Positions 50,142 to 59,260 of a stretch of DNA of 64,000 nt are shown one piece after another. The notes under the pieces were generated by a model. The model did not search any database and was not told where the DNA came from. It saw only the letters and a program-made list of their open reading frames with translations. The stretch is from assembly GCA_001515945.1 (NCBI GenBank), contig LOER01000038.1, positions 1 through 64,000 on the forward strand, written 5' to 3'. Source of the stretch: Desulfitibacter sp. BRH_c19 (GTDB lineage: Bacteria > Bacillota > DSM-16504 > Desulfitibacterales > Desulfitibacteraceae). Numbering within the stretch: position 1 is the first letter of the stretch; every line of letters starts with the position of its first letter. The position numbers and the translations under genes are program-made.

Positions 50142-50819
50142 CTAGATATCCTTAGCCAATAATTTTAAATTTTCAATATCTTTGATAAGAAACTGATTTC
50201 GTGTGATTTCAATTATGCCTTTATCTCTTAATCGGTAAAGTAGCCTACAAACAACTTCACGCTTAGTTCCTATCCTTGCTGCCATATCATCAAGTGTCAT
50301 ATTTCTGGGAACTTGATGTTGATCCTTGGAATAGTATTCGTCGAGTATTAAGCTTGCAAGGCGGGTTAAAACGTCTTCAAAAGCCATTTGGTTAATTGTA
50401 TTAGAAGCTTCGCGCATTCGCTTCATTAGAATTGTAGTAATTTCCCAAAGAGCTTCTGGGTTTTGTTTTATAATAGGCATTAAATGATCCTTATGCCATA
50501 AATAGATCCTGGTGTTTGTCTGAATTGCTTGGAGTGTTCCGGGTGTGGGGCCCCCGTCAATTATTGCGTGCCCTAAAAATATGTCTCCCGGTTTAAATGT
50601 GCGTAAAACAAGGCTATGGCCTTTATGCGATTCTCTCGCCATTACCATAATTCCTTTTTGTACCAAAATAATATAAGGCAATAAATCATTATACAAAGAG
50701 ATTATTTGACCTTTTTTTAGGTCACGACATACGGCTAGCTCACATAATTTTGTGAGCTCTTTTTTATTCAATTTTCTAAATACCAATGCTTTTGACATCA
50801 TAATCAATACATTATCCAC
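50142..50819 (-). CDS. Crp/Fnr-family transcriptional regulator
   Basis: 225 residues: cyclic-nucleotide-binding-type beta roll (about 1-120, GHSLVLRTFKPGDIFLGHAI), a dimer helix (NPEALWEITTILMKRM) and a Crp HTH (MTLDDMAARIGTKREVVCR). No N-terminal Cys cluster like that of Fnr is seen, though Cys26 and Cys31 (approximate) are present in LCELAVC. GTG start with AAGGGGG upstream. Divergent from the heme/membrane-protein operon, so probably its O2-, NO- or redox-dependent activator. Confidence 0.88.
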   Translation of the reverse strand: MDNVLIMMSKALVFRKLNKKELTKLCELAVCRDLKKGQIISLYNDLLPYIILVQKGIMVMARESHKGHSLVLRTFKPGDIFLGHAIIDGGPTPGTLQAIQTNTRIYLWHKDHLMPIIKQNPEALWEITTILMKRMREASNTINQMAFEDVLTRLASLILDEYYSKDQHQVPRNMTLDDMAARIGTKREVVCRLLYRLRDKGIIEITRNQFLIKDIENLKLLAKDI

Positions 50820-51173: not shown

Positions 51174-52091
51174 ATGTCATTATATTCTCAAGAAGTATCT
51201 TCGGGAGCAAGAAAGTTAGTTATCGTTTTGGTGTTGATATCAGCCGTATTCATGATTGGAGTACAGCCGTTTATGACTGCACCTGCTTTGGATACGATTC
51301 AAGTGGCCCAGTTTGAACGAATTGATAAGTTTTATGCTGAAGGAAACCCAGCAGCACCGCTTATAGAAAATACTCCAGCAATGGTTGGTTTCTTTTTTGC
51401 ACAATGGACAATGCTTTCATTCATTGGAGGATTAGTTTTATTCATTATTGCTAAGCCCTTGTACAATGGGGTTAAATGGGCTAAAGCAATTGCCTTGATA
51501 TGTCTTGCAATGCCTTCTATAGGTGGGGCTTATATGCTGGTACCTTGGATGAACTTTGTTAGTAGTTCGCCTGATGCAGGTTTTCCGCCAGCGGTAATTA
51601 TCATGGCAGCCGGCCTAATCCCCTATTTTGCTATTGTTATGGCGGGTAAAAGTAGTGCTATTGAAAAAGCAATCCTCTTCACAATTTTTACCTTGCTCGG
51701 GGTTGCAGCTGCTTATACCTTTGGTAATGGCCATGCAGCACACCGCATACTAATTGGGCATCCTATGCTACCCCAATATGGACCAGATATCTTTGTATTA
51801 AACTATGCTCGTACTGCAGGTTGGATAGCTGTACTGGGACTTACGGCTGCTATCTATTTGCTGGCAATGCGTAAAGAAGTTGGTTGGTGGATTGGACTAT
51901 CTGCAGGAGCAGTCACAGGTTTTACTGGCCTATTAACCCATTACTATCGTCATGTTACCGTGGATTATTTACTTCAGGGCTTAGCTGGATTGGCTATTGT
52001 AGCAATCCTGTTAATTCCCATGGTAAAACGACTGCTTATTGGTAATGTAGAACAGAAAGGAACAATATCGGAAAAATTTCATAGTGCATAG
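51174..52091 (+). CDS. His-rich multi-span membrane protein (unknown, oxidase-cluster)
   Basis: 305 residues with about eight helices. Conserved-looking polar spots include NGHAAHRILIGHPMLPQ and THYYRHVTVDYLLQG, several His at membrane edges that could bind heme or metal. No CxxCH motif. I do not recognise the family with confidence. AAGGAGG precedes the ATG. First gene of the operon under the divergent Crp regulator and probably a partner subunit of the protein at 52370. Confidence 0.65.
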   Translation: MSLYSQEVSSGARKLVIVLVLISAVFMIGVQPFMTAPALDTIQVAQFERIDKFYAEGNPAAPLIENTPAMVGFFFAQWTMLSFIGGLVLFIIAKPLYNGVKWAKAIALICLAMPSIGGAYMLVPWMNFVSSSPDAGFPPAVIIMAAGLIPYFAIVMAGKSSAIEKAILFTIFTLLGVAAAYTFGNGHAAHRILIGHPMLPQYGPDIFVLNYARTAGWIAVLGLTAAIYLLAMRKEVGWWIGLSAGAVTGFTGLLTHYYRHVTVDYLLQGLAGLAIVAILLIPMVKRLLIGNVEQKGTISEKFHSA

Positions 52092-52156: not shown

Positions 52157-52234
52157 ATGGAAGGATCATATTTTTTGATTGGTTCTGTCGTAGTTGGTGC
52201 TGTTCTCATGTTGGTATTTTGGAAATTAAATTAA
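52157..52234 (+). CDS. 25-residue membrane peptide, candidate small subunit
   Basis: Begins MEGSYFLIGSVVVGAVLM and ends LVFWKLN: a single helix. AGAGGTGA lies just before the ATG and the gene is between two membrane-protein genes of one operon. Size and place recall small subunits of terminal oxidases such as CydX or CcoS-like peptides (analogy, not homology). Confidence 0.55.
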   Translation: MEGSYFLIGSVVVGAVLMLVFWKLN

Positions 52235-52369: not shown

Positions 52370-53896
52370 ATGTCCAATCGTATAAAGTACCTGTTTAGTT
52401 CCACAAATGGGTTGGTGCTTATGGCGATAGCGATAATAAGCATAATAGCAGCTATTTGGGGTACTTTGTCAGGACCCATGGTGGAAATGGGAGTAAGAGA
52501 TATTACAGTAAAAGTTTTAGGCATGAAAATGGTAGAGGCAGAACGCGAGGGTAGGGTAATAATGCTCTATCATGTGATAGCCATGGCAGTAATAGCTATT
52601 TTAGTATATTTAATTACCGCAAATGTAAGGATGGATAAGAAATTAGCTCTATTTGCAAATGCATTGGTAACAGCAGGGTATCTTATTGTTGTACCGGCAG
52701 GCTTGTTATTTGCTTATTTTGGTCGTAACTGGGTAATGCATGGTATGTATGTATTTGGCTTATCGATGATTTTTTTATCAGGCTTGATACTAGCTGTGGC
52801 CCTGTGGCCTTGGAATAAAAAATACTATTTAGAAAAAGGTTCCCCATATGCTCATCTACCTTCTGGTCTAGACTTAGAAAGGGTTGCCTTTTGGGCTATG
52901 ACTTTAGCTACACTCGGATCCGCAGCTTTAGGAGGAATGGTAGCATCATATTTTGGTAATGGCTTTGAAGTGTTTTTGGCAGAAGACACCATACGTCATC
53001 CTGTAAAGAACCACCTGCAACTATCAATAGTGGGTCATTTACATATTATGCTGGCTCTAATGGGGATAGCAATAACTTTGGTAATGGGAAGATGGTTAGA
53101 TTTTAAAGGTATATGGCATAAAATAGCTATGCCTAGCATGGTACTTGGTACAATTACTCTTACAATAGGAGCTTGGGCTGTTGTACCTGCTCAGAATATA
53201 GCTCATACAATCATCTATGTGGGTGCGGTGTTTTCCATGTCTGGAGGCTTGTTCTTAGTAATCTATGGCATGCCTAAACTAGTCAAGGATCGACTACAAG
53301 AGCAGGGTCTTGTAAAAGCGACTTTTTGGCAAAAGACTATGGCCCTTTTCCATGACCCATTAAAGTTTGGGGTATTGTGGCAGATGATATTTATGAATTT
53401 TACAACCAGTTTTGTAGGAATTTTCATGGCTATCAGGCTAACAGAAATTTTTCGAGTATGGCCCCATCGAGAAGAACGTATAGAACTAGCTGGTCATTGG
53501 CATATATTGTCTGCCATTATAGCTATAATGATTCTGTTCTATTTCTTAGATAGGATAGGCTTGAAAGGAAGAATCCGACAATGGTTTGGGTGGACAATGA
53601 TTATAGCTTCAGATTTAGCCTTTGCAGCAATAACTGTTTTTGAGATGAAACGGTTATTTGTTACCGAATATATGCAACAGCCTGTAGTGAACTTAACAAT
53701 GATATTAACTGACATAGGATTAGGGTTGATACTAATCTTATTGGCTGGTTTTTTGATATGGCGAATAATTGACCTGTTTAAAAGTAAAGGGCTATGGATA
53801 AAAGAACTAGAGGAAACAGATATTGAAGTGACATGTTTAGATGAAACAACTACAGTACAATCTAAACAAGAGTCAGGACGGGAGGTGTCACAATGA
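52370..53896 (+). CDS. Large membrane protein distantly like heme-copper oxidase subunit I
   Basis: 508 residues, about 12 helices. His positions suggest heme binding: H68 (MLYHVIAMAV), H124 (WVMHGMYVFG), H223/H225 (SIVGHLHIMLALMG), H279 (NIAHTIIYVG) and H376/H378 (LAGHWHILSAI). GHLHIMLALMG resembles the helix-X segment of oxidase/NOR subunit I, but the His-His copper pair of helix VII is not seen. ATG at 52370 follows GGGGGAGGG. The linked heme O synthase and NapH-like gene support a heme electron-transfer role. Could be a divergent NO reductase or oxidase, or a quinol-binding cytochrome b. Confidence 0.6.
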   Translation: MSNRIKYLFSSTNGLVLMAIAIISIIAAIWGTLSGPMVEMGVRDITVKVLGMKMVEAEREGRVIMLYHVIAMAVIAILVYLITANVRMDKKLALFANALVTAGYLIVVPAGLLFAYFGRNWVMHGMYVFGLSMIFLSGLILAVALWPWNKKYYLEKGSPYAHLPSGLDLERVAFWAMTLATLGSAALGGMVASYFGNGFEVFLAEDTIRHPVKNHLQLSIVGHLHIMLALMGIAITLVMGRWLDFKGIWHKIAMPSMVLGTITLTIGAWAVVPAQNIAHTIIYVGAVFSMSGGLFLVIYGMPKLVKDRLQEQGLVKATFWQKTMALFHDPLKFGVLWQMIFMNFTTSFVGIFMAIRLTEIFRVWPHREERIELAGHWHILSAIIAIMILFYFLDRIGLKGRIRQWFGWTMIIASDLAFAAITVFEMKRLFVTEYMQQPVVNLTMILTDIGLGLILILLAGFLIWRIIDLFKSKGLWIKELEETDIEVTCLDETTTVQSKQESGREVSQ

Positions 53897-54804
53897 GAAG
53901 CATAACTATGATATTAATGGTATTAGTCATTGCTGTATTTGCAAGTGGGTGTGGTGTAGTGCCAGATACTCCAGATGCTGTTAAGTTATACAATAAAGCC
54001 GGTGTTGATCCGAATTCATGGGCATTAGTTCCAACTGGTGAGTTCTTACAGGGTCAATTTAACAAATCCACTACTATAGACTATGACTATGAAATTATGG
54101 TTACAAACGTAACTAATTATCAATATGCTAGATATCTTGAGGAGGTTCTGGCTGCAGGAGAGATTGAGATTGAAAATGGCAACATATATGGTTATTACCC
54201 TGGAGATGAATTTGAAGATGGTAAGCACGAAGAAAAGATCGAAGAAGGATATTATTTGCATATGCCCCTAGAAGATCTAGCCACTAGAATCACATACGAC
54301 GGAACTAGTTTTTATGTAAAGGATGGTTATGAAAACCATCCAGTAACCATGGTAAGCTGGTTTGGAGCTAAAGCTTATGCCGATTTTTTTAATTACAGAC
54401 TACCAACAGGACTTGAGTGGGAAAAAGCAGCCCGTGGTACGGATGACCGTCCTTATCCTTGGGGTGATGAGCTTACAAAATATAATGCAAATTACTATCA
54501 TAGCGGTGACCCCTTTGAAACCAACAATGGCTATAGTGACACAACACCCGTTGGATTTTACAACGGACAAAAATATGGTGATTTTCAGACCTTTGATTCC
54601 CCTAGCCCTTATGGCCTGTATGATATGGCCGGCAATGTAGCTGACTGGACAGGAGAAAAACACTATAAAGTACATTATCGTTATATGCGCGGAGGAAATA
54701 GTGGCAGCTATGGAATAGATACCCGAATCTGGAAGGATAACAGTTCGCATCCAGAATATGTGAGTCCTAGTGTAGGATTCCGCTGTATACGCGAGCCACA
54801 ATAA
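53893..54804 (+). CDS. Formylglycine-generating-enzyme-like (SUMF1/NirV-like) lipoprotein
   Basis: 303 residues: lipoprotein signal ending FASGC, then an FGE-sulfatase domain (VPTGEFLQG, HPVTMVSWFGAKAYADF, RLPTGLEWEKAARG, YPWGDE, SPYGLYDMAGNVADWTG, SVGFRCI). The two Cys of true formylglycine enzymes are not evident, so it is probably structural or redox-related, like NirV of nitrite-reductase loci. It overlaps the preceding gene by four bases and would sit outside the membrane next to that protein. Confidence 0.85.
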   Translation: MRSITMILMVLVIAVFASGCGVVPDTPDAVKLYNKAGVDPNSWALVPTGEFLQGQFNKSTTIDYDYEIMVTNVTNYQYARYLEEVLAAGEIEIENGNIYGYYPGDEFEDGKHEEKIEEGYYLHMPLEDLATRITYDGTSFYVKDGYENHPVTMVSWFGAKAYADFFNYRLPTGLEWEKAARGTDDRPYPWGDELTKYNANYYHSGDPFETNNGYSDTTPVGFYNGQKYGDFQTFDSPSPYGLYDMAGNVADWTGEKHYKVHYRYMRGGNSGSYGIDTRIWKDNSSHPEYVSPSVGFRCIREPQ

Positions 54805-54831: not shown

Positions 54832-55737
54832 ATGAATACCAGCCATGTAAGAAATACGCACCTACCCCAGGAAACAGTAGTATATTCTTTGGAAAAACTT
54901 AAGCAGTACTGGATGCTTATAAAAAGCAAACAAACGTTTTTACTGGTAATTACAGGGTGGGCAGGATTTAGTAGTGGGGCATGTCCCCTTACACACTCGA
55001 AAATGTTGTTAGCTTCTCTTGCCTGCCTTTTTTTGGTAATTAGTGGATGTACCATGTTTAATATGATACTTGATCGGGATATCGATGCCAAGATGAACCG
55101 GACAGCTAAAAGACCTTTGCCCAGTGGGGCATTAAAGGTAAAAGAAGTCATTCTTTGGGGAAGCATCATTTTACTAGTAGGTTTAGGGTGGGCCTTTTTG
55201 CTCAGTCCCCTATTTGGATTGATTGTGGCGGCAGGAGTATTTATAGATCTAGTGGTCTATACCATATTACTAAAAAGAACTACAGCTTTTTCAATCCTCT
55301 TTGGGGGTATATCTGGTGGTATGCCAATTTTAGCTGGAAGGGCTTTAGGGTTAGGCACTATAGATACTATTGGAGTCCTCCTTGCCTTAGCAATACTGTT
55401 GTGGATACCAACCCACATTATGACATTTAGCATTAAATATAGAGATGATTATAGTAGGGCAGATATTCCAACATTCCCATCTCAGTATGGAGTGGAAAAC
55501 ACACGAAAAATAATTGCTATGTCTACAATTATGGCTAGTATAAGCATGATTCTATCAGCGTATTTAATAGGGATGAATGGATTATGTTTACTTGCAATGG
55601 TCTTATCCAGTATAATCCTGATTACTTTTGCAACTATTTATATGAGTAAATCCTGTTACAAGCTTGATATGAGATTATTTAAAATGGCATCCATCTACAT
55701 GCTAGTGACCATGATACTAATTGGTTTTGGGGCATAA
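54832..55737 (+). CDS. ctaB: Heme O synthase (protoheme IX farnesyltransferase)
   Basis: 301-residue UbiA-family membrane prenyltransferase. Diphosphate-binding motif NMILDRDIDAKMNRTAKRPL matches CtaB, as does the second motif KYRDDYSRADIPTFP. It would farnesylate heme b to heme O, a cofactor used by heme-copper oxidases. Unusual in a clostridium and strong evidence that an oxidase-like protein is encoded here (52370). GGGGGGAG lies before the ATG. Confidence 0.9.
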   Translation: MNTSHVRNTHLPQETVVYSLEKLKQYWMLIKSKQTFLLVITGWAGFSSGACPLTHSKMLLASLACLFLVISGCTMFNMILDRDIDAKMNRTAKRPLPSGALKVKEVILWGSIILLVGLGWAFLLSPLFGLIVAAGVFIDLVVYTILLKRTTAFSILFGGISGGMPILAGRALGLGTIDTIGVLLALAILLWIPTHIMTFSIKYRDDYSRADIPTFPSQYGVENTRKIIAMSTIMASISMILSAYLIGMNGLCLLAMVLSSIILITFATIYMSKSCYKLDMRLFKMASIYMLVTMILIGFGA

Positions 55738-55775: not shown

Positions 55776-56957
55776 GTGATTAGTGTTAGTAAATTGGTAT
55801 GTAATACTGAAAGCTTTGGAGATACTTTACGATACAACAAGGATTCTAAAGGTACTTCTCATGGAACTACATGTCAGAAAGGGCCAGTAGTGGTATGGAA
55901 TTGTACCAAAACCTGTAATCTAAATTGTATTCACTGTTATGCAAGTGCAAGTGCTGAAAATGAAGAATGTGATGGGGAATTAACCACTAAGGAAGGTAAA
56001 ACTCTTATTGAGAATTTAAAGGCGTATAATGTTCCTGTGCTTCTAATTTCAGGTGGGGAGCCTTTAATGCGTGATGATATACTCTATTTAGCTAAATATG
56101 CTAATAATTTAAATATTAGGACTACCTTTTCTACGAATGGAACCCTGATAACAAAACAGATAGCTAAACAGCTTAAAGAAGCAGGTACTAGCTATGTCGG
56201 TATTAGTATTGATGGTATTGGTGAAACAAATGATTCTTTTCGTGGGCAAAATGGAGCTTTTGACAAGGCTGTAAGAGGAATAGAAAATTGTTTGTCAGTA
56301 GGGCAAAGAGTTGGTTTGCGTTTTACGATAAATAAGCGTAACTTGTCGCAGCTTCCCGGTATTTTTACTCTTATTAAGGATATAGCTATTCCTCGTGCCT
56401 GTTTTTATCACCTTGTATATAGTGGGCGAGGAAGTAGTTTGATCAAGGAGGACATAAGTCTTCAGGAAGCAAGGGAAACCATGGAACTGATTATAGACCA
56501 TACAAGAAACTTTCAAAGTATGGGTTTAGATAAGGAGATTCTAACAGTAGCAAATCATGCAGATGGAATTTATCTTTACCTTAAGTTAAAGAACGAAGAC
56601 CCTGTAAAAGCTAAAAAAGCCTGGGAATTATTAAAAAATAATGGGGGTAATCGTACAGGAATGGCCATTTCAAGCGTGGATTGGAATGGAAATGTTCACC
56701 CTGACCAATTTACTGCTAATTATACTATCGGAAATGTTCGTAAAAAGCCCTTTGGGGAAATATGGAGTGACAAGTCTAATAAGATCCTTTTGGGGTTAAG
56801 AAATAGAAAATCTCTTCTAAAAGGTCGTTGCTCGAAGTGTCAATGGCTTGATATCTGTAATGGAAATGTTCGGGTTAGAGCTGAAGCGGTTTATGAAGAC
56901 TTATGGCAGTCAGATCCTGCCTGTTATTTATCAGATCTAGAAATTGGCCTTCAATAA
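55776..56957 (+). CDS. ahbC: Radical SAM heme-synthesis protein AhbC/NirJ
   Basis: 393 residues: radical SAM site CNLNCIHC, GGEP in LLISGGEPLMRDD, YVGISIDGIGETNDSFRG and CFYHLVYSGRGS, typical of AhbC (12,18-didecarboxysiroheme deacetylase) and its NirJ relatives; a C-terminal Cys-rich SPASM-type end (RCSKCQWLDICNGN, then DPACY) could hold another cluster. GTG start after GGGGGAA. With AhbA/AhbB downstream it belongs to the siroheme route to heme; heme d1 synthesis is the alternative. Confidence 0.87.
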   Translation: MISVSKLVCNTESFGDTLRYNKDSKGTSHGTTCQKGPVVVWNCTKTCNLNCIHCYASASAENEECDGELTTKEGKTLIENLKAYNVPVLLISGGEPLMRDDILYLAKYANNLNIRTTFSTNGTLITKQIAKQLKEAGTSYVGISIDGIGETNDSFRGQNGAFDKAVRGIENCLSVGQRVGLRFTINKRNLSQLPGIFTLIKDIAIPRACFYHLVYSGRGSSLIKEDISLQEARETMELIIDHTRNFQSMGLDKEILTVANHADGIYLYLKLKNEDPVKAKKAWELLKNNGGNRTGMAISSVDWNGNVHPDQFTANYTIGNVRKKPFGEIWSDKSNKILLGLRNRKSLLKGRCSKCQWLDICNGNVRVRAEAVYEDLWQSDPACYLSDLEIGLQ

Positions 56958-56968
56958 ACAGGATTCTT

Positions 56969-57110
56969 GACTTCAGGTGGAGTTTTTACTCCATCTGAAG
57001 GTTAGAAACCGTTATCCACGCTAGTAACACTTATGAACTTGTTCATTAGTGTTGAGTGTGTGCAAAGCTGGACATAGCACCGCTTATAGAAGATGGGAGT
57101 CTTGGAGTGA
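56969..57110 (+). repeat. Structured interspersed repeat, copy C (related to A and B)
   Basis: Starts CTTCAGGTGGAGT/ACTCCATCTGAAG (perfect stem apart from one G-T pair), followed by an AACACT-ATGAAC/GTTCAT-AGTGTT hairpin and CTTATAGAAGATGGGAGTCTT, which parallels CTTATAGAAGTGGGGGTCTT of copy B. It sits inside the operon between ahbC and ahbA. Confidence 0.55.
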
Positions 57111-57208
57111 AATTTGTCAACTTGTTGGCATAGCTGAACCCATGCAAGGCTAGCGGTGATAGTCATCGGATAAGTACTGGCTTGAGTAAACAAGGGTAGG
57201 TGTGTAAA

Positions 57209-57694
57209 ATGGATTATCCTGACAAACAAATTCTATCCATTATTCAAAGTGACTTTCCAATTGTTGCTAGACCGTACTTATGTATAGCTAAAAAAGTTGG
57301 TCTGTCCGAGGCAGAGGTGTTGATGAGGCTAAAGAAATTGCTTGCAGATGGGTTGATTAGACGTATAGGCGCGGTTCTAGATTCTAAATGCCTTGGCTAT
57401 AGCAGTACTCTTTGTGCTATGCAAGTGTCTGAGGAAAGAATACCAGATGTGGCTACTGTAATTAGCTCTTATGAAGGGGTGACTCATAATTATATCCGAG
57501 AACACAAATACAACCTCTGGTTTACTCTAATATGTAATTCTCCCCAAATGCTGAATTATATCATTCAAGAAATAACAAATAAAACCGGTATAACAGTTCA
57601 TACTTTGCCTGCAATGAAACTGTTTAAGATAAGCGTAAAACTCCCAGTTCCCGGAATGGAGGTAGATACTTATGAAGTTAACCACTTTAGATAA
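57209..57694 (+). CDS. ahbA: Siroheme decarboxylase subunit AhbA (Lrp-like)
   Basis: 161 residues: Lrp/AsnC-like HTH (about 1-60, QSDFPIVARPYLCIAKKVGL) and an effector-type beta domain with VTHNYIREHKYNLWFTLI. Siroheme decarboxylase subunits keep this regulator fold but act as enzymes, converting siroheme to 12,18-didecarboxysiroheme. ATG at 57209 preferred. Overlaps ahbB by 23 bases. Confidence 0.88.
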   Translation: MDYPDKQILSIIQSDFPIVARPYLCIAKKVGLSEAEVLMRLKKLLADGLIRRIGAVLDSKCLGYSSTLCAMQVSEERIPDVATVISSYEGVTHNYIREHKYNLWFTLICNSPQMLNYIIQEITNKTGITVHTLPAMKLFKISVKLPVPGMEVDTYEVNHFR

Positions 57695-58163
57695 AGTCAT
57701 AATTTGTGAATTGCAAAATAGCATTTCCCTAGACTCTCGCCCTTTTAATTCCATTGCAGAGCAAATTGGTATTACAGAAGTAGATTTAATTAAAAGAATT
57801 GAATTATTACAGGAAAAAGGTTTTATCAGGCGGGTTGGAGCAGTTGTTAATCACAGAAAGATGGGTTATATTGCTAATCCAATGATTGCTTGGAATGTAC
57901 CAGATAATCTTGTAGATAAAGCGGGGCAAGAAATTGCTGCCTATTCTGAAGTAACTCATTGCTATCTAAGACCACGTCTGCCAGATTTTCCGTATAATAT
58001 TTATTCCATGATTCACAATCAAACGCGGGAAGCATCAGCTAAAATGGCTAAAGAAATCTCGGTATCAATAGGAATTGCGGATTACATGTTGTTATATAGC
58101 AGCGTTGAACTTAAAAAGTCAAGTATGAAGTATTTCAACGAGGAGGGGTTACAAGAAGCTTGA
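57672..58163 (+). CDS. ahbB: Siroheme decarboxylase subunit AhbB (Lrp-like)
   Basis: 163 residues, same fold as AhbA: DSRPFNSIAEQIGI then FIRRVGAVVNHRKMGY, and VTHCYLRPRLPDFPYNIY with the His/Tyr pattern used for siroheme binding in AhbB/NirD-like proteins. Forms a heterodimer with AhbA. Homologous to NirDL/NirG/NirH of heme d1 synthesis. Confidence 0.88.
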   Translation: MKLTTLDKVIICELQNSISLDSRPFNSIAEQIGITEVDLIKRIELLQEKGFIRRVGAVVNHRKMGYIANPMIAWNVPDNLVDKAGQEIAAYSEVTHCYLRPRLPDFPYNIYSMIHNQTREASAKMAKEISVSIGIADYMLLYSSVELKKSSMKYFNEEGLQEA

Positions 58164-58222
58164 CTCAGAAACCAGATTTTGATTAACTCATTTAAAGCGT
58201 GTGCAAAGGAAGTGACATTATA

Positions 58223-59260
58223 ATGCTAGTAACTGTTACAGCTGTAGTTTTAGTTATAAATATTCCATTTGGCTTTTGGCGCGCGAGAGTTAAAAAACTT
58301 TCATTACCATGGTTATTATCGATCCACTTTCCGATAATTATAGCATTTATGTTGCGTGCTATAGCTGATTTAGGATGGGGATTATCCACCTTTCCTCCAT
58401 TTATGGCGGCCTTTCTTTTAGGCCAGTTTTTTGGAGGAAAGCTATATCTAACTTCTCAAAATTATAAAAAAATGAACTCAGTGAAAACCATTTGCTTTAT
58501 CCTTTTGAAGAATATAAGTATTAAAAAAGAGCAAATAAAATGTGTGGCAAAAACTAAATGGCATAGAAAAAATATTCAAGCACTCTTTTTTGTACTTTTT
58601 ATTTGGTTTATATTAAATTTTATTCCTAGTGTAAAATTTCTTTTTACTGTTCTTATATTATTTATTTTAATTACTTTAACGCTGCGCACAGGACTTTGTG
58701 GTTGGATGTGTCCTTTTGGAACACTATTCGAAAGGTTTAATACACTTGGAGGAAAAATAGAAAGTATTGGCATTATTCAACCTAGATACAAAAAATATAA
58801 AAAATGGATAAAAGACAACAGAGGTTTATTAAATAAAATTGATAAATACGCTAGGTACTTTAAATATCCTTTCTTACTATGGACTATTTTTTCATCTGTT
58901 TATTCATTCAGAGCTGGACATTTGGCTGTCCCATATGTATTTCTAGTATTGTTAACTTTAACGTTATTTATTAATAGGGCTTGGTGTAGATATGCCTGCC
59001 CAGTAGGTGCGCTAATAGGAGTTTTAGGAAAGTTAAGCCCAACTATAATAACACGGGATGAACAAAAATGTATCAAATGTAACAGATGTAGTAGAGTTTG
59101 TTCAATGAATATCGACGTAGCTAAACAAAAGCATGTAAAAGCTACAGATTGCATCACATGTTTAGAATGCGTTGATGCTTGTCCTATCCATGGAGCATTA
59201 GAATTGAGAGTTGCTTTACCTCGAATTACAAATAGGAAAAACAGAAATACTAGTTTTTAG
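58223..59260 (+). CDS. NapH/NosR-like membrane protein with two [4Fe-4S] ferredoxin sites
   Basis: 345 residues. Three N-terminal helices (VTVTAVVLVINIPFGFW, IHFPIIIAFMLRA, FMAAFLLGQFFGG), then two NapH-type membrane CxxxCP motifs (CGWMCPFGTLFERF, CRYACPVGALIG) and a C-terminal 2[4Fe-4S] domain (CIKCNRCSRVC, CITCLECVDAC). Such proteins carry electrons from quinol across the membrane in nitrate, nitrous oxide or related pathways. The extra N-terminal helices look like a fusion. ATG at 58223 with AAGGAAGTGA upstream. Last gene of the operon. Confidence 0.88.
   Translation: MLVTVTAVVLVINIPFGFWRARVKKLSLPWLLSIHFPIIIAFMLRAIADLGWGLSTFPPFMAAFLLGQFFGGKLYLTSQNYKKMNSVKTICFILLKNISIKKEQIKCVAKTKWHRKNIQALFFVLFIWFILNFIPSVKFLFTVLILFILITLTLRTGLCGWMCPFGTLFERFNTLGGKIESIGIIQPRYKKYKKWIKDNRGLLNKIDKYARYFKYPFLLWTIFSSVYSFRAGHLAVPYVFLVLLTLTLFINRAWCRYACPVGALIGVLGKLSPTIITRDEQKCIKCNRCSRVCSMNIDVAKQKHVKATDCITCLECVDACPIHGALELRVALPRITNRKNRNTSF

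Follow-up and report, generated by a model that had tools for sequence, protein, structure and literature searches.

A membrane protein family with a predicted heme-copper oxidase fold and no helix VII histidine pair

The window, a stretch of 64,000 nucleotides from Desulfitibacter sp. BRH_c19, encodes at 52370..53896 (+) a 508-residue protein with twelve transmembrane helices that is predicted to adopt the fold of the heme-copper oxidases (HCOs) and carries no His-His pair on helix VII. The protein is probably a new branch of the enzyme class that reduces oxygen or nitric oxide (NO). Our leading explanation, to which we assign a probability of about 45%, is a deeply divergent family on the HCO scaffold: a membrane hemoprotein containing heme O that works as the reductase of a small gas, with NO the most probable substrate. 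In all known HCOs, CuB or FeB has three His ligands, of which helix VI provides one and helix VII an adjacent pair (His-His); this metal site is regarded as the hallmark of heme-copper oxidases and NO reductases without exception. A search of the open-access literature turned up no description of the present family.

Seven invariant histidines

Translation of the main gene starts at the ATG at 52370, with the ribosome-binding site GGGGGAGGG just upstream. The two H-x-H motifs picked out by the first-pass annotation, GHLHIMLALMG (H223/H225) and GHWHILSAI (H376/H378), stand in the translated open reading frame 153 residues apart, as it had stated, and the HH dipeptide does not occur once in the 508 residues. 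Seven His (H68, H124, H223, H225, H279, H376 and H378) are kept in 26/26 family members wherever the position is covered, and this invariance holds down to 35% identity, the members at loci L059 and L060 being 35-37% identical to the window protein. With both H-x-H pairs and the three single His unchanged across 26 sequences, the pattern goes beyond chance.

The His codons were located by codon arithmetic from the start at 52370 and set against the helix limits predicted by AlphaFold2. H68 (52571..52573 (+)) lies in helix II (residues 56-85), at the position of a low-spin heme ligand in HCOs; H124 (52739..52741 (+)) is among the first residues of helix IV (121-144) and has no counterpart among known HCOs; H223-L-H225 (53036..53044 (+)) falls in helix VI (215-242); H279 (53204..53206 (+)) is likewise among the first residues of helix VIII (275-311); and H376-W-H378 (53495..53503 (+)), in helix X (366-395), takes the positions of two HCO heme ligands. 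Thus the helix II His and the helix X H-x-H that bind heme in HCOs are present with matching helices and spacing, the helix VI His of the CuB/FeB site is represented by the invariant H223 and H225, and the HCO set is extended by a second helix VI His, by H124 where helix IV starts and by H279 where helix VIII starts. Each of the seven His, all on even-numbered helices, sits no more than nine residues into the hydrophobic core and on the same membrane side, as do HCO ligands. Loop charges mildly favour an N-in topology (K+R 26/140 inside versus 13/102 outside), which would put the invariant His on the outer membrane side, where HCO hemes lie.

The absence of the copper His pair, remarked on earlier for the single protein, extends to the whole family: a conserved HH on helix VII is missing from all 26 members, and that helix has no conserved His of any kind. 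Helix VI has the consensus GHLHIML(A/T/E)L, and among the 26 members there is no invariant Tyr on helix VI or VII. The three-His metal site is thus absent from the 26-member alignment, and no conserved Glu or Tyr near helix VI takes its place.

Predicted fold and relation to heme-copper oxidases

Two AlphaFold2 models were compared with the PDB using Foldseek. The first, built on a 26-row alignment with the window protein as the modelled sequence, has 12 TM helices (mean pLDDT 80.8, pTM 0.86), and its matches at ranks 1-26 all belong to the HCO superfamily (cbb3, aa3, ba3, cNOR, qNOR; TM-score 0.38-0.60), with a Foldseek probability of 1.00 for ranks 1-25; the next fold after the HCOs is a GPCR at rank 27 (TM-score 0.12). 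The second, of a 35%-identical member (pLDDT 81.4, pTM 0.85), likewise matches HCOs throughout ranks 1-22, with TM-scores up to 0.62; the two models draw on a largely common set of homologues and are therefore not fully independent. A fold unrelated to COX1, which the first-pass annotation had said would speak against its reading, did not appear, both models matching only HCOs and NO reductases, and the resemblance to HCOs that it had proposed is supported by predicted fold and conservation alike. The spacing of the His points the same way: from helix VI to helix X (H225 to H376) it is 151 residues, as in the B-type oxidase used for comparison (151), and from helix II to helix VI it is 155/157 against 162. 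We consider it very likely, from these models, that the main protein has the HCO fold.

Sequence comparison gave a different picture. The profile-profile check against COX1/NorB turned out negative: no significant match was obtained with hhalign to seven HCOs (COX1 + NOR, NOR only and A-type sets), all seven of which share the invariant H-H, and the best echo, between repeat 2 and the HCO helix X region, reached P = 6e-4 as the best of nine comparisons. None of the 26 members matches PF00115 at E <= 1; Pfam and NCBIfam at E <= 1 returned nothing beyond noise for the main protein, as did Pfam for the 26 members. The main protein has no match in PHROGs and no relative in plasmid records, the family has none in the PDB by sequence (hmmsearch), and neither the cytochrome bd profile PF01654 nor, at E <= 1, the NnrS profile PF05940 matched. 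With the COX1/NOR profile comparisons not significant, the link to HCOs rests on the fold.

This undetectable sequence homology, together with Foldseek E-values of 6e-4 to 0.3 and an rmsd of 7-10 A over all columns, is what would be expected if the fold were an unrelated one and the HCO likeness an artefact of predicting the structure of a 12-helix protein. Such an artefact is nevertheless highly improbable, since the PDB holds many 12-TM transporters and yet the top 26 and top 22 matches are exclusively HCOs, and since helices II, VI and X carry their invariant His in HCO order and spacing. The defining helix VII His-His is lacking, as is a match to the PF00115 profile, and the protein is therefore better described as a variant on the HCO scaffold than as a member of COX1/NorB.

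Among named systems, subunit I of the B-type (ba3) oxygen reductase of Thermus thermophilus (PDB 4g7s / 4g72) comes closest in its 12-TM fold, for which the TM-scores were highest (0.60 and 0.62), and its helices II, VI and X carry His at nearly the same spacing; the main protein differs from it in the additional invariant His on helices VI (the second), IV and VIII and in lacking the helix VII His-His, the helix VI Tyr and detectable sequence similarity. The lowest Foldseek E-value, 6.5e-4, was obtained with the C-type (cbb3) oxidase CcoN (PDB 8smr, 3mk7), whose helix VII HH and cbb3 Tyr are absent here, and neither CcoO nor CcoP was recognised. With cNOR/qNOR (NorB; PDB 3o0r, 4xyd, 3ayf, 8bgw) the family shares the fold, the lack of a Tyr-His cross-link and, at some loci, NO-related neighbours; however, the FeB ligands of these enzymes (three His plus a Glu on helix VI) were not found, and no NorC or cytochrome c subunit was recognised in the cluster. 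The NO-reducing gNOR, eNOR and sNOR keep the helix VII His pair, the very feature that the main protein has lost. In these Hemp and Gennis types, the active-site residue varies among NO-reducing HCOs (PMC8756737). An HCO-type ligand set outside the classical families, in some cases with replaced CuB and heme ligands, has been described for the 'bd-like' oxidases of Nitrospira/Nitrospinae (PMC8026999); those proteins are related to cytochrome bd, whose profile PF01654 has no match in the present family.

The HCO fold is a pseudo-threefold design in which a four-helix unit occurs three times, at intervals of about 155 residues, and the main protein repeats accordingly. In profile-profile comparison, residues 205-326 align with 360-480 (P = 4e-7), H-x-H upon H-x-H, and residues 55-168 with 205-326 (P = 0.0017), H124 pairing with H279. 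The internal repeat suspected by the first-pass annotation is thus real; its further suggestion of a duplicated cytochrome is not needed, as the repeat is the inherent pseudo-threefold four-helix symmetry of the fold and calls for no separate duplication event. Of the likeness to helix X heme ligands that had been seen in both motifs, the second H-x-H, on helix X, bears it out, and the first sits on helix VI, the usual place of the CuB ligand. The lone His described as preceding each H-x-H exists in substance, with the correction that H279 follows its H-x-H in repeat 2; in repeat 1, H68 precedes H124.

Gene neighbourhood

In the window the main gene belongs to a cluster that also includes the gene for a 305-residue membrane protein of unknown family, TM305 (51174..52091 (+)), which recurs as upstream partner at some Chloroflexota loci (26-30% identity). 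A CRP/FNR-family regulator (50142..50819 (-)) is divergently transcribed, and CRP/FNR homologues lie near the main gene at several other loci. The stop codon of the main gene is overlapped by the ATG of a lipoprotein gene (53893..54804 (+)) with an FGE/SUMF1-like domain (PF03781), followed by the heme O synthase gene ctaB (54832..55737 (+); TIGR01473, 209.9 bits, cut-off 210.3). Further downstream are a NirJ1/AhbC-like radical SAM protein of siroheme-route heme synthesis (55776..56957 (+); TIGR04054, 635.7 bits, cut-off 650), the siroheme decarboxylases AhbA (57200..57694 (+); NF040708, 168.5 bits, over cut-off) and AhbB (57672..58163 (+); NF040707, 171.8 bits, over cut-off), and a membrane 4Fe-4S protein of the NapH/NosR type (58199..59260 (+)), a possible electron donor. 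AhbD/NirJ2 is absent from the operon, where 55776-58163 (+) holds the NirJ1-like protein, AhbA and AhbB, and the NirJ1 score falls just under its cut-off, so that the route may lead to heme b or to heme d1.

The order main gene, lipoprotein, ctaB is common to most of the Chloroflexota loci examined. Counterparts of TM305 and of the NapH-like protein accompany the main gene at L013, where the NapH-like homologue lies between TM305 and the main gene, and at some other loci. Three unnamed membrane proteins often flank the core in Chloroflexota, N1 upstream and N3 and N2 downstream. N1 and N3 (L045:9407-10060 (-) and L045:5358-5963 (-)) are paralogous, have one invariant His each and bracket the core of main gene, lipoprotein and ctaB in many loci; N2 (L045:4613-5302 (-)) is a 228-residue protein in which the motifs GGiGTtCaA and THtwgG are conserved; it occurs in about 12-15 loci.

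The FGE-like domain matches PF03781, yet its active-site consensus reads GGSk..Y without the copper-binding Cys pair. The lipoprotein was accordingly rejected as a copper-loaded FGE and, lacking the catalytic Cys pair, is read as a structural subunit of the outer face. At L012:9992-12406 (+), in one Bacillota genome, the main protein and the FGE-like lipoprotein are fused in an 804-residue open reading frame; a lipobox-like hydrophobic segment is found at the junction. Between the TM305 gene and the main gene, a 25-residue single-helix open reading frame, MEGSYFLIGSVVVGAVLMLVFWKLN, with a good ribosome-binding site lies at 52157-52234 (+); as it has no counterpart at other loci, it was dropped as a candidate for a conserved CcoQ-like subunit. 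The COX1-family protein beside the divergent member at L060 (L060:9319-10944 (-)) is an unusual NOR-like HCO, with SHH and THAH intact and a helix VI, WWGLDMVADG, that has Asp at the place of the CuB/FeB His and Asp at +4.

Heme O synthesis in family hosts

Heme O, the product of CtaB, is used in HCOs as such or as the precursor of heme A. The ctaB gene lies within the cluster in the window and at most of the Chloroflexota loci examined, and its occurrence among the Bacillota genomes compared follows that of the family. One CtaB each (209-244 bits) was found in the window's genome (G000, 100% complete), in G147 and in Syntrophaceticus (G398); none above 84 bits was found in eight comparator Bacillota, two of them of the same genus (3/3 versus 0/8, P = 0.006). 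COX1 is absent from all three host genomes, and cytochrome bd from G000 and G398. In Syntrophaceticus, ctaB is not adjacent to the main gene and its product is 56% identical to the window CtaB; in G147 it is again not adjacent, lies in a heme-synthesis cluster and encodes a protein 29% identical to that of the window. It is very likely that the main protein binds heme, and its dependence on heme O is likely, judging from the ctaB neighbour and the co-occurrence.

Adjacency to ctaB and to heme synthesis genes would also suit an assembly or heme-handling factor, such as a carrier or inserter of heme O serving another enzyme. We think this very improbable: G000, G147 and Syntrophaceticus contain no COX1 client for heme O, and the fold of the family resembles the enzyme itself.

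Distribution of the family

Among 398 genomes of its own phylum, G147 (63% identity) was the one genome besides the window's with a full-length relative. When GTDB species contigs were searched with an alignment of two sequences, matches came from Syntrophaceticus schinkii, from a single Bacillota MAG and from seven contigs of Chloroflexota (Anaerolineae / Ardenticatenia). Besides the window genome there are two Bacillota hosts. Within Chloroflexota the family is present in 17/400 genomes sampled across the phylum and, in the order to which Anaerolineae bacterium UTCFX2 belongs, in 53/161.

Candidate substrates

The neighbours of the main gene at several loci point to nitrogen oxides. The nrfHA genes adjoin the cluster at L017 and L051, the call at L051 resting on homology to the L017 pair and on an NrfA match at G549:C181, and expression of nrfHA has been reported for UTCFX2 (PMC5460018). 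One divergent member has as its neighbour a flavodiiron protein, for which NCBIfam gave the anaerobic NO reductase flavorubredoxin as the best match, below cut-off; another adjoins a NOR-like COX1 protein. Across Chloroflexota, NrfA occurs in 14/15 genomes with the family and 16/385 others (P = 9e-17). Within one order the association shrinks to 23/53 versus 21/108 (P = 0.002, odds ratio 3.2), which indicates that much of the phylum-wide signal is shared ancestry; after this order-level control, the NrfA link was dropped as strong evidence for NO. All three Bacillota hosts are without NrfA.

Heme O has been known chiefly as a cofactor of HCOs that reduce oxygen. This, the HCO fold of the two predicted models, the host without any other known oxidase and the divergent CRP/FNR-type regulator are all in keeping with an oxygen reductase, a heme-only or two-His-metal oxidase scavenging traces of O2 in anaerobes. 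Such a function is nonetheless unlikely, given that the active-site Tyr of oxygen-reducing HCOs (at helix VI +4, or on helix VII in the C-type) is missing, that no conserved Tyr or Glu stands at helix VI +4, and that the three-His CuB site of all O2-reducing HCOs is absent; in addition, the nrfHA, flavodiiron and NOR-like COX1 neighbours point elsewhere, and several Chloroflexota hosts already own a COX1.

The missing metal site, on which HCO catalysis depends, raises the question of whether the protein is catalytic at all. It could instead be a heme protein on the HCO scaffold that acts as a quinol-oxidising electron carrier, a gas sensor or an NnrS-like protein relieving NO stress; the extra His could form further bis-His hemes for electron transfer, and the unnamed membrane partners are conserved alongside. 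We judge this role unlikely as well, for H376 and H225 still occupy the positions of the ligands to the high-spin heme and the active-site metal, a heme O synthase of its own speaks for a specialised heme at the active site, and neither NnrS nor another Pfam family is matched. On balance we lean towards a gas reductase over a non-catalytic protein and, with NO as main substrate still a tentative proposal, rank NO reduction or detoxification first, O2 reduction second and a non-catalytic role third.

A possible arrangement of hemes and electron flow

As an NO-reducing hemoprotein of anaerobes, the protein may serve NO detoxification or act as an electron sink, with heme O supplied by the neighbouring CtaB. 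The threefold symmetry of the fold allows the invariant His to be assigned provisionally to its pores. In pore C, H68 (II) and H378 (X) would bind a low-spin heme, as in all HCOs, and in pore B the active-site heme would be bound proximally by H376 (X). On its distal side would stand H225 (VI) and H279 (VIII), acting directly or through a two-His non-heme metal; beside a heme-only reading, it is thus conceivable that these two residues could hold a non-heme metal. In pore A, which is blocked in known HCOs, H223 (VI) and H124 (IV) may bind a third heme. Electrons might come from quinol via the NapH-like Fe-S protein, and the lipoprotein would cap the outer face. The most elaborate form of this proposal, a tri-heme enzyme of pseudo-threefold symmetry with which strict anaerobes would reduce NO (or O2) by means of heme O, and which would have both the two-His metal site at H225/H279 and the third heme at H223/H124, is doubtful.

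A widespread family with the predicted fold and heme ligands but without the helix VII pair would mean that the HCO scaffold allows a different active site, and the gain of invariant His at symmetry-related positions would bear on the evolution of the threefold-symmetric fold. Anaerolineae are common in anammox and sludge communities, and among the hosts are organisms regarded as lacking any HCO-type terminal oxidase or NO reductase. For anaerobic Bacillota and for Anaerolineae, the family would be a further enzyme of respiration or detoxification that has so far gone uncounted.
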